Assembly: GCF_036884295.1 (NCBI RefSeq)
Contig: NZ_CP145608.1
Coordinates: 1,798,001 to 1,862,000, forward strand
Direction of reading: 5' to 3'
Length of the DNA: 64,000 nucleotides
Origin: Brochothrix thermosphacta DSM 20171 = FSL F6-1036
GTDB taxonomy: Bacteria > Bacillota > Bacilli > Lactobacillales > Listeriaceae
A program made the position numbers and the translations under genes. The notes beneath the pieces are model-generated. The model was not told where the DNA came from and did no database searches. It was given only the letters and a program-made list of their open reading frames with translations. How positions within the stretch are numbered: the first letter of the stretch is position 1; each line of letters opens with the position of its first letter. Positions 45,855-47,347 of the stretch are shown one piece after another.

Positions 45855-45883
45855 TTGATAAATCAACTAATTTTAGCTATACT
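45855..45883 (+). promoter_or_regulatory. Promoter of the CorA leader transcript
   Basis: TTGATA (45855-45860) and TATACT (45878-45883) with a 17-bp spacer. The start point would be near 45890, giving a leader of about 175 nt before the transporter ATG. Confidence 0.65.
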
Positions 45884-45920
45884 AATAAGGTTGAGAATAT
45901 CTCGAAAGGAGCCTGTATAT

Positions 45921-46037
45921 ATGAACGTAATAAATAAACCGCAAGAACCAGACCCCCAGTCAGAGCAGCAGGACAGGAACAGTATGTGTCCTAACAGCTT
46001 TAACAGGCTCTTGTTTCTGGTTCTGCCTTCCCACTAA
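45921..46037 (+). CDS. 38-codon leader ORF with EPDP motif before corA
   Basis: Small ORF with an AAAGGAG site 8-9 nt upstream, starting MNVINKPQEPDPQSEQQD and ending LLFLVLPSH. It stops 30 bp before the CorA-type gene. Residues 8-15 (QEPDPQSE) resemble the EPDP segment of enterobacterial MgtL, where Pro/acidic residues destabilise the ribosome when Mg2+ is low. The whole ORF lies over a strong hairpin (45944-46024), and the EPDP codons form its 5' arm. It is probably a regulatory leader rather than a functional protein. The analogy is inference. Confidence 0.65.
   Translation: MNVINKPQEPDPQSEQQDRNSMCPNSFNRLLFLVLPSH
45944..46024 (+). promoter_or_regulatory. Three-tier leader hairpin ahead of corA
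   Basis: Nested perfect stems: AGAACCAGA (45944-45952) with TCTGGTTCT (46016-46024), AGAGC (45962-45966) with GCTCT (46007-46011), and AGGACA (45970-45975) with TGTCCT (45987-45992). It is clearly more GC-rich than its surroundings. No U-tract follows, so control would be translational or Rho-dependent. It does not match the M-box, NiCo or yybP-ykoY riboswitch layouts as I know them. Confidence 0.75.
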
Positions 46038-46067
46038 TAGTCGTTATAAAATGAGGAGGTTTCAATT

Positions 46068-47012
46068 ATGCTACAAATTTTCAAAACAGACATGGCTTCA
46101 GGCCAATTGCTCGAATTACAAGAAATTGAAGACCAATGCTGGATTAACTTAGTCAGCCCAACAACGGAAGAAATCAACCAAATTGTAGAACAAACAAGCG
46201 TGCCGGTTGAATTTTTACGTGACCCACTTGATAATGATGAAAGTTCTCGTATCGAACGTGAAGATGATAATGTGCTTATCATTGCCGATTTCCCTATTGA
46301 GAACACTGATGATGATGTGAGCTCTATCTCATTCGAAACAATGCCGTTGGGGATTATTATCACCAATAAAGTGTTTATTACCGTCTGTTCAGAAAACTCA
46401 CCAATTTTACAATCATTCATTCATCAAAAAGTGCGCAATTTCTATACGCACATGAAAACGCGTTTCGCTCTACAAATTCTATATCTTGTTTCGACAAGTT
46501 ACTTACGTTTACTCAAACGTTTAAACCGTCATTCAGATCGAATTGAAAAAGAACTACATCGTTCAATGAAGAACAAACAATTGTATGATCTCATGGGAAT
46601 CGAAAAAAGTTTAGTGTACTTCGTTACCTCTTTGAAATCAAATAAATTAGTGTTAGATAAGATGTTTCGTCAAAATATGATTCGCATGTATGAGGAAGAC
46701 CAAGACCTGTTGGAAGACGTTATTATCGAAAATCGTCAAGGTCTTGAAATGGCCGATATACATAGCAATATTTTAAGTGGGATGATGGATGCCTATGCTT
46801 CTATCATTGGTAACAACATGAATATTGTTATGAAATATCTTACATCAGTCACAATCATCCTCTCATTCCCAACAATGGTATTCAGTTTTTACGGTATGAA
46901 CGTTAAATTACCATTTATGAATAATGAATATGGGTGGATAATCGCAATTGGCTTCGCAATAATTATTGCAGTAGTCACAGCCTTTGTTTTCTCTAAAAAG
47001 AAATTCTTTTAA
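46068..47012 (+). CDS. corA: CorA-family Mg2+ transporter
   Basis: Pentameric cation channel for Mg2+ (possibly Co2+ or Ni2+). The large N-terminal cytoplasmic domain (1-250) ends in a long helix. Two C-terminal transmembrane segments follow: VTIILSFPTMVFSFYGMNV with the signature YGMN at about 283, and IIAIGFAIIIAVVTAFVF. A lysine-rich tail ends the protein. The length is 314 residues. AGGAGG precedes the ATG. It is preceded by a structured leader with an EPDP-containing ORF, which suggests Mg-dependent control. Confidence 0.93.
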   Translation: MLQIFKTDMASGQLLELQEIEDQCWINLVSPTTEEINQIVEQTSVPVEFLRDPLDNDESSRIEREDDNVLIIADFPIENTDDDVSSISFETMPLGIIITNKVFITVCSENSPILQSFIHQKVRNFYTHMKTRFALQILYLVSTSYLRLLKRLNRHSDRIEKELHRSMKNKQLYDLMGIEKSLVYFVTSLKSNKLVLDKMFRQNMIRMYEEDQDLLEDVIIENRQGLEMADIHSNILSGMMDAYASIIGNNMNIVMKYLTSVTIILSFPTMVFSFYGMNVKLPFMNNEYGWIIAIGFAIIIAVVTAFVFSKKKFF

Positions 47013-47056
47013 AACCTAAAGGTTCTGATAGCTCATTTAAAACTAAAAAGAATTGG

Positions 47057-47100
47057 AAAAAACCACTTGATGATATTTTTACAGTCATCGGGTGGTTTTT
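47057..47100 (+). terminator. Terminator after corA (unit 1 hairpin)
   Basis: 13-bp stem including two G-U pairs, flanked by A6 and U5. It lies 45 nt after the corA stop. Confidence 0.8.
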
Positions 47101-47127
47101 GAAATTTTTAAAAGTTTTAGCTATTAG
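47099..47127 (+). promoter_or_regulatory. Promoter-like sequence inside repeat unit 1
   Basis: TTGAAA (47099-47104), 17 bp, TATTAG (47122-47127). The same pair recurs at 47222-47249 with a 16-bp spacer. Each would drive a short transcript that ends at the next hairpin. Confidence 0.4.
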
Positions 47128-47133
47128 AACTGG

Positions 47134-47225
47134 AAATAATAAAGGTTCTGATAGCTCATTTAAAACTAAAAAGAATTGGAAAAAACCACTTGATGATATT
47201 TTCACAGTCATCGGGTGGTTTTTGA
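47134..47225 (+). ncRNA. Candidate small RNA, repeat unit 2
   Basis: Predicted from the promoter-like sequence at 47099-47127 and the terminator hairpin at 47184-47225, giving about 90 nt. It opens with a weak stem GAAC/GTTC around GGAAATAATAAA. There is no direct evidence of expression. Confidence 0.35.
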
Positions 47226-47255
47226 AATTTTTAAAAGTTTTAGTATTAGAACTGG

Positions 47256-47347
47256 AAATAATAAAGGTTCTGATAGCTCTCTCAAAACTGAATAAAATTG
47301 AAAAAAGCAATATAATGAAATTATTACAGTCACTATATTGCCTTTTA
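47256..47347 (+). ncRNA. Candidate small RNA, repeat unit 3
   Basis: Predicted from the promoter-like sequence at 47222-47249 and the hairpin at 47307-47341 followed by CTTTT. The sequence has diverged from unit 2, but order, size and hairpin are kept. Confidence 0.3.

Follow-up and report, generated by a model that had tools for sequence, protein, structure and literature searches.

Does a short open reading frame (ORF) ahead of a CorA-family gene in Brochothrix thermosphacta bring to a Gram-positive host the kind of ribosome-based Mg2+ sensing known from the MgtL leader of enterobacteria? The question arises since the ORF encodes EPDP, the motif where, in E. coli, ribosomes drop off mgtL when Mg2+ is low (PMC11282234). 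We analyzed a window of 64,000 nt (positions 1798001-1862000 of a one-contig, 2.56-Mb Brochothrix genome) and compared its leader with those of relatives. The association of the leader with corA was confirmed, and it is wider than first noted.

The leader and its gene in Brochothrix

The original prediction described a promoter, a 38-codon ORF with its own SD and QEPDPQSE at codons 8-15, and a CorA-type gene downstream. We found each of these in the window:

45855..45883, + strand: promoter-like site TTGATA-17-TATACT, with 10/12 matches and the top + strand score of the promoter scan
45906..45916, + strand: A1, the leader SD region AAGGAGCCTGT, which pairs with 46003-46012
45921..46037, + strand: leader ORF, ATG at 45921 and stop TAA at 46035-46037, 38 codons plus stop, with its own SD AAAGGAG
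45945..45956, + strand: EPDP codons GAA CCA GAC CCC (codons 9-12)
46053..46059, + strand: corA SD (B3), GAGGAGG, read from the sequence
46068..47012, + strand: CorA-family gene, 314 aa (Pfam PF01544, 7.9e-55)

The leader peptide is MNVINKPQEPDPQSEQQDRNSMCPNSFNRLLFLVLPSH. Among ORFs of 10-89 codons on both strands of the 64-kb window, it is the sole SD-led one with [DE]P[DE]P in codons 1-20. The downstream protein scores 186.7 bits against PF01544 (cut-off 27) and lies below the cut-off of the narrower TIGR00383 equivalog (129.7 vs 200.75). The promoter-like site is present, but the scan returned 13 sites vs 7.4 in shuffles. Reading the sequence of B. campestris FSL F6-1037, the only other genome of the genus in the set compared, we found identical promoter hexamers and spacing; CorA of this strain is 91% identical.

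Upstream of the leader are a DUF1054 gene and, on the opposite strand, an inositol monophosphatase gene. Listeria monocytogenes NCTC7974 has the same gene order; its middle gene is named YktB, and its incomplete gene table lists no gene between the YktB gene and corA. The terminator scan found no intrinsic terminator on the + strand ahead of corA. Behind corA (47018-47245), a hairpin-bearing stretch is present twice, 123 bases apart, with 102/105 bases identical, and its first bases occur again at 47263.

The acid-proline motif among relatives

Relatives of corA were found by searching genomes, the DNA ahead of them was read, and near-duplicates were removed for the main counts. The strict pattern [DE]P[DE]P was fixed beforehand from the EPDP of the original prediction; looser patterns were written after the leaders had been seen. 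We found an SD-led ORF with the strict motif ahead of orthologous corA in 14/15 non-redundant Listeriaceae and in 18/32 other Bacillales leaders, the latter group being formed from the loci of the best 30 of 39 matched genomes plus L028, L116 and L118, of which L118 joined after its leader was seen. In comparison, the strict motif occurred in none of the control windows of the same loci (0/770 and 0/646, in total 0/1416) and in 0/600 and 0.08% of 1280 shuffles.

With the looser pattern, written afterwards, 29/32 of the other Bacillales have a leader; three Bacillales loci (L175, L183 and L188) yielded no row in the leader table for this pattern. When duplicates are kept, an SD-led early [DE]P.P is present in 52/52 Listeriaceae loci and the strict motif in 33/52, and the remaining loci have DPGP, the form found in the L. 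monocytogenes group. The motif is found as SEPDPHRS (Listeria), SEPDPSSR (Priestia taiwanensis), KEPDPDS, NEPDPPR, NEPEPEY and ADPDPYN, and variants are DPGP, NPGP and DPRP.

In 44 leaders compared, variation within the motif codons is 0.10 at the first, 0.05 at the second and 0.64 at the third position. Rows were chosen by the motif, which partly builds in the low values at the first two positions but does not account for the free third one. Further along, in codons 8-15 past the start of the motif, all three positions reach 0.67-0.69. Since the first two positions of the motif are nearly fixed and the third is near saturation, the comparison of sequences shows that selection acts on the leader as a peptide and maintains an acid-Pro-acid-Pro motif around codons 8-10. 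A hairpin kept where the peptide is lost had been named in advance as the outcome that would speak against the idea; instead, the relatives conserve the peptide and leave third positions free.

The reading frame is preserved as well. Leaders have 30-46 codons as a rule and their stops lie at a median of -22 relative to corA. We found the stop within -60 to +5 of corA in 42/44 leaders, compared to 8/44 and 12/44 for the other frames. By this comparison, the leader frame has been kept open almost up to the start of corA. Both marks of an MgtL-type leader are thus present: a Mg2+ transporter gene preceded by a short SD-led ORF, and an early conserved acid/Pro motif.

The device is not universal: many other corA genes lack it. 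A leader was found with the strict pattern at 3/29 and with the loose pattern at 4/29 class-level loci. The strict motif occurs in 0/28 'other' leaders, among which we placed L117 and L119-L123 (from the same class search as L118, without a leader). It is also lacking at the Listeria corA paralogue, which is about 42% identical (0/8 loci, L143-L150), and at twelve further Bacilli corA loci (0/12, L151-L162); loci L100-L113 gave 0/14 with the strict and 1/14 with the loose pattern. Loci L124-L138 stood outside all groups of the strict-motif count and were included in a later recount.

Competing helices in the leader RNA

In the predicted folds of the Bacillales leaders, the strands follow the order A1, motif, B1, A2, B2, B3. 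A1 is the leader SD (AAAGGAGTTGAT), and within the ORF lies its complement, A2; B1 is an SD-mimic (GAGGAAGTC, GGGGAAGTC), B2 (GGCTTCCTC) lies at the leader end, and B3 is the corA SD, GAGGAGG. A1:A2 crosses B1:B2, and B2 can pair with either B1 or B3. The original prediction had the EPDP coding stretch as the switching arm. This fails for most relatives, where the SD-mimic takes that place: in 26/29 leaders (those with a shuffle fraction under 0.1), 5-16 nt separate the motif from the start of B1.

Compared with shuffled targets, pairing in 29 Bacillales leaders gave Fisher values of 4e-20 (A1:A2), 7e-18 (B1:B2) and 2e-13 (B2:B3), and in 15 Listeriaceae 5e-6, 1e-6 and 0.087, respectively; these values pool related species and should not be read as strict probabilities. 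RNAalifold on 15 aligned Bacillales leaders chooses A1:A2 and B2:B3, the OFF helices, unaided. In this alignment, 85.9% of OFF-helix cells are paired, the covariation score is reached by 0/500 shuffles, and the number of pairs changed on both sides by 37/500. For B1:B2, 90.0% of cells are paired, with 9/500 shuffles reaching the score and 79/500 the both-side cells.

We built a covariance model from those 15 Bacillales leaders, without Brochothrix or Listeria. Of 299 Bacillales genomes, 69 match it at E up to 0.01, the genomes of the model members included. The covariation set comprised 40 matches (38 distinct), among them the 15 model-building leaders. In this set, 55 cells of the OFF helices carry changes on both sides, and on all five measures 0/500 shuffles were as good, in an alignment that was fitted to the OFF structure. 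B1:B2, a helix absent from the model, pairs in 92.3% of cells vs 41-61% in slid controls; its score is reached by 0/500, and its both-side changes number 8 vs up to 12 in slid controls. The comparison thus shows competing helices in Bacillales, A1:A2 with B2:B3 against B1:B2. Helices of this kind, predicted to mask or release a downstream SD, are the mark of an mgtQ-type device.

The model later matched two of the Bacillales loci that had yielded no leader row (L175, E 4.8e-6; L183, 5e-14) and gave no match at the other, L188. Four matched corA leaders have a decayed motif (L282, L283, L291, L294), and two matches, L281 and L292, lack an SD-led ORF within the searched stretch. Weak matches ahead of a gene that we take to be panB (L290) and at L296 and L297 were judged to be chance. 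At L289 (G431), a strong SD-led leader reads NEPDPDPG, with EPDPDP, and no corA was read behind it in 1.6 kb.

Outside the order used to build it, the model finds the leader of the window in place (45899-46073, E 0.0066). The match to B. campestris is weak (E 0.067), Listeria L017 reaches only E 0.39, and Listeria L012 and L024 gave no match at E up to 1. We rejected a single consensus structure for Listeriaceae, as RNAalifold gives no pair on their alignment. Hence, a switch in Listeriaceae rests on single-sequence pairings.

For Brochothrix, the paired strands are as follows, in addition to A1 and B3 above:

45944..45952, + strand: B1, 5' arm of the EPDP hairpin, nine pairs with 46016-46024
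45970..45992, + strand: inner tier of the EPDP hairpin, 45970-45975 with 45987-45992
46003..46012, + strand: A2, complement of the leader SD, ACAGGCTCTT
46016..46024, + strand: B2a, 3' arm of the EPDP hairpin, TCTGGTTCT, kept in B. campestris
46027..46031, + strand: B2b, CTTCC, a possible but weak partner of the corA SD, five pairs with 46055-46059

A three-tier perfect hairpin had been claimed. The three tiers are there, with nine pairs and further G-C pairs in the outer one and -28.3 kcal/mol in all, but the hairpin is not perfect throughout, as a bulge interrupts the middle tier. Its 5' arm in Brochothrix is indeed the EPDP coding stretch, 45944-45952 pairing with 46016-46024. B. campestris keeps the 3' arm even though its leader stops before the arm, so the arm is kept there as RNA.

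The strength of these pairings depends on the control. Compared with dinucleotide shuffles, the leader fold is modest (7/200 as good for the hairpin, 40/200 for a longer stretch). Among synonymous recodings of the same peptide, 0/500 were as good as the MFE of the leader ORF (mean -11.9, sd 3.7), and 0.1% of 2000 equalled the pairing of the EPDP arm. The leader-SD helix A1:A2 in the longer stretch has -18.0 kcal/mol, with 2% of 200 shuffles as good, and its pairing was equalled by 0.85% of 2000 synonymous recodings. This helix (45906-45916/46003-46012) crosses the EPDP hairpin (45944-45952/46016-46024), as A1:A2 crosses B1:B2 in the relatives.

The corA-SD helix of Brochothrix (B2:B3) is at chance level, 63.5% of shuffles being as good, and the automatically chosen B1:B2 is equalled by 27.5%. 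We rejected the idea that B1:B2 cleanly opposes the corA-SD helix here, since the two coexist in the fold. Hence, with the EPDP codons themselves forming the B1 arm and the corA-SD helix weak, only the opposition of the leader-SD helix and the EPDP hairpin is well supported by the modelled pairings. MgtL-like alternative RNA structures tied to leader translation, which the Bacillales have, are seen only in part in Brochothrix. It had been proposed that ribosome loss lets the hairpin form. The covariation in Bacillales supports such a step, but the hairpin is only half of the device, because the leader SD itself pairs with a downstream strand that crosses it.

Proposed control of corA, its rivals and its reach

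We think it rather probable that the leader peptide reports on Mg2+ via the ribosome and that an RNA switch converts the report into CorA translation. We infer translation of the leader, a response to Mg2+, ribosome drop-off and the sign of control as follows. One RNA state would hide the leader SD (A1:A2) and the corA SD (B2:B3), and the other would free the corA SD. At low Mg2+, ribosomes would fall off or pause at the acid-Pro motif, B1 would be free, B1:B2 would form, the corA SD would be exposed and CorA would be made. With ample Mg2+, ribosomes would read through and melt B1, so that B2 would pair with the corA SD and CorA would be shut down. B1 lies about where the footprint of a ribosome on the motif ends. 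Hence, loss or a pause of this ribosome would leave B1 to take B2, with the corA SD free. This logic is of the MgtL/MgtQ type, and the output looks translational.

The main rival is translational coupling, as in the model a ribosome placed close to the end of the leader releases the corA SD as well. Here, ribosomes that complete the leader would open the hairpin over the corA SD and start again at corA, so that losing them at the motif when Mg2+ is low would mean less CorA, opposite to the sign proposed above. In Bacillales, the corA SD is unpaired by a mean of 0.60-0.66 with the ribosome at +32 and +33 codons from the start of the motif and by only 0.13-0.14 with it in mid leader, and the leaders do stop near corA. 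Coupling would, however, leave the conserved SD-mimic B1 and B1:B2 without a role, and less CorA at low Mg2+ would be odd for an importer. We regard it as unlikely. A slightly lower chance goes to a motif that senses some other slowing of acid-Pro synthesis (EF-P, ABC-F factors, prolyl-tRNA or ribosome drugs) and not Mg2+ itself. B. subtilis ribosomes without EF-P stall at Asp-Pro repeats and YfmR relieves the stall (PMC11381351), but the gene behind the leader encodes a CorA-family transporter in the cases read, those with DUF1003 excepted, and the same EPDP senses Mg2+ in mgtL (PMC11282234).

That the RNA binds Mg2+ or is plain structure, with the ORF incidental, would suit the covarying helices and the RNA-model matches that have lost the motif. 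It seems very improbable given the free third codon positions of the motif, the frame kept open and the lack of any Rfam match in the window. Least credible of all is a small protein acting in trans: the leader looks translated and adjoins corA, but the codons past the motif vary equally at all three positions, and the three leaders scanned have no Pfam or NCBIfam match.

How does such a leader compare to known ones? The mgtL motif stands directly behind the start codon; here it is at codons 8-10, the gene is corA and the hosts are Bacillota. In common with mgtL/mgtA of E. coli and Salmonella are the ribosome-destabilising EPDP and a short leader ORF before a Mg2+ transporter gene (PMC11282234), as well as two RNA states (PMC11552253). 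In contrast, mgtL acts by Rho-dependent termination (PMC11282234, PMC11552253), whereas the helices selected here cover SDs. The corL/corA leader of Salmonella and E. coli likewise precedes corA, and in the E. coli OFF fold a stem hides the corL SD; corL is described as having few prolines and acidic residues and as acting via Rho (PMC11552253). In Salmonella mgtQ/mgtB, acidic codons abort translation of the ORF and favour a helix that frees the mgtB SD (PMC8092293). There the ORF has 8 codons and lies between two operon genes, whereas the leaders here are longer, have their own promoter and have their own SD masked too.

The M-box (ykoK) riboswitch also provides Mg2+ control of transporter genes in Bacillota and has been reported before mgtA of L. 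monocytogenes (PMC12824596), but here a peptide motif is selected. We rejected the M-box or another Rfam element, as none matched in the window and only a tRNA was found in 20 related loci. In mycobacteria, an M-box is accompanied by a conserved small ORF (PMC12810186), which is another kind of device. The original prediction knew of no Gram-positive example, and our literature search of open-licence PMC papers turned up no description of such a leader in a Gram-positive. The phylum and the two-SD architecture appear to be new; the MgtL-type motif and the MgtQ-like logic are of a known kind.

Leaders before corA extend, in a looser form, beyond Bacilli. In part of the following loci, SD-led leaders begin with acid, Pro or Gly residues:

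L191-L196, L207-L220, L049-L057: Spirochaetes
L031-L034, L039, L221-L234: Clostridia

Examples are MDPDPDSRR, MDSDPGS and MPDPDSCSR in Spirochaetes and MDVGPSYRR, MESGPSPESR and MNSQPDPRS in Clostridia. An N-terminal pattern, written after the leaders were seen, fits 16/39 and 12/38 non-redundant loci of the two groups. The leader SD pairs downstream better than in shuffles (Fisher 9e-8 for the 39-locus and 3e-4 for the 38-locus set), and the corA-SD helix is not convincing in the same sets (0.07 and 0.03). Since the strict motif is present in only 1/39 and 0/38, the extension to Spirochaetes and Clostridia is weaker. At L160 (G309), ahead of a corA of another Bacilli family, the leader MDSSPSCG with a G-rich SD resembles the Clostridia type.

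The Bacillales RNA model also matches leaders of a DUF1003-like membrane protein in four genomes:

L279, 48-231, + strand: model match before DUF1003
L280, 43-228, + strand: model match before DUF1003
L287, 1367-1551, - strand: model match before DUF1003
L288: model match before DUF1003

Two of the four proteins were scanned and match PF06210 (1e-36 and 1e-33). The DUF1003 leaders have the same A and B strands and a peptide MGSPSIGESDNLPTTSEEV or similar, without EPDP. Genome G371 carries both a DUF1003 leader RNA and a corA copy. The broadest reading is that acid-Pro-leader Mg2+ sensing of corA is widespread in Bacillota and Spirochaetota and that the Bacillales two-SD switch also runs DUF1003, which would be a new Mg2+-homeostasis gene. 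We rate this as somewhat less likely than not; the recount, in which further leaders proved to lack the motif, lowered its odds slightly.

If the proposed control is true, use of the ribosome as a Mg2+ gauge would be carried from enterobacteria to Gram-positives, and corA would be under control where no M-box is found. In Bacillus-like hosts, the leaders would offer candidates for the natural mRNAs on which EF-P, ABC-F factors and bL31 act, and DUF1003 would become a candidate Mg2+ gene.
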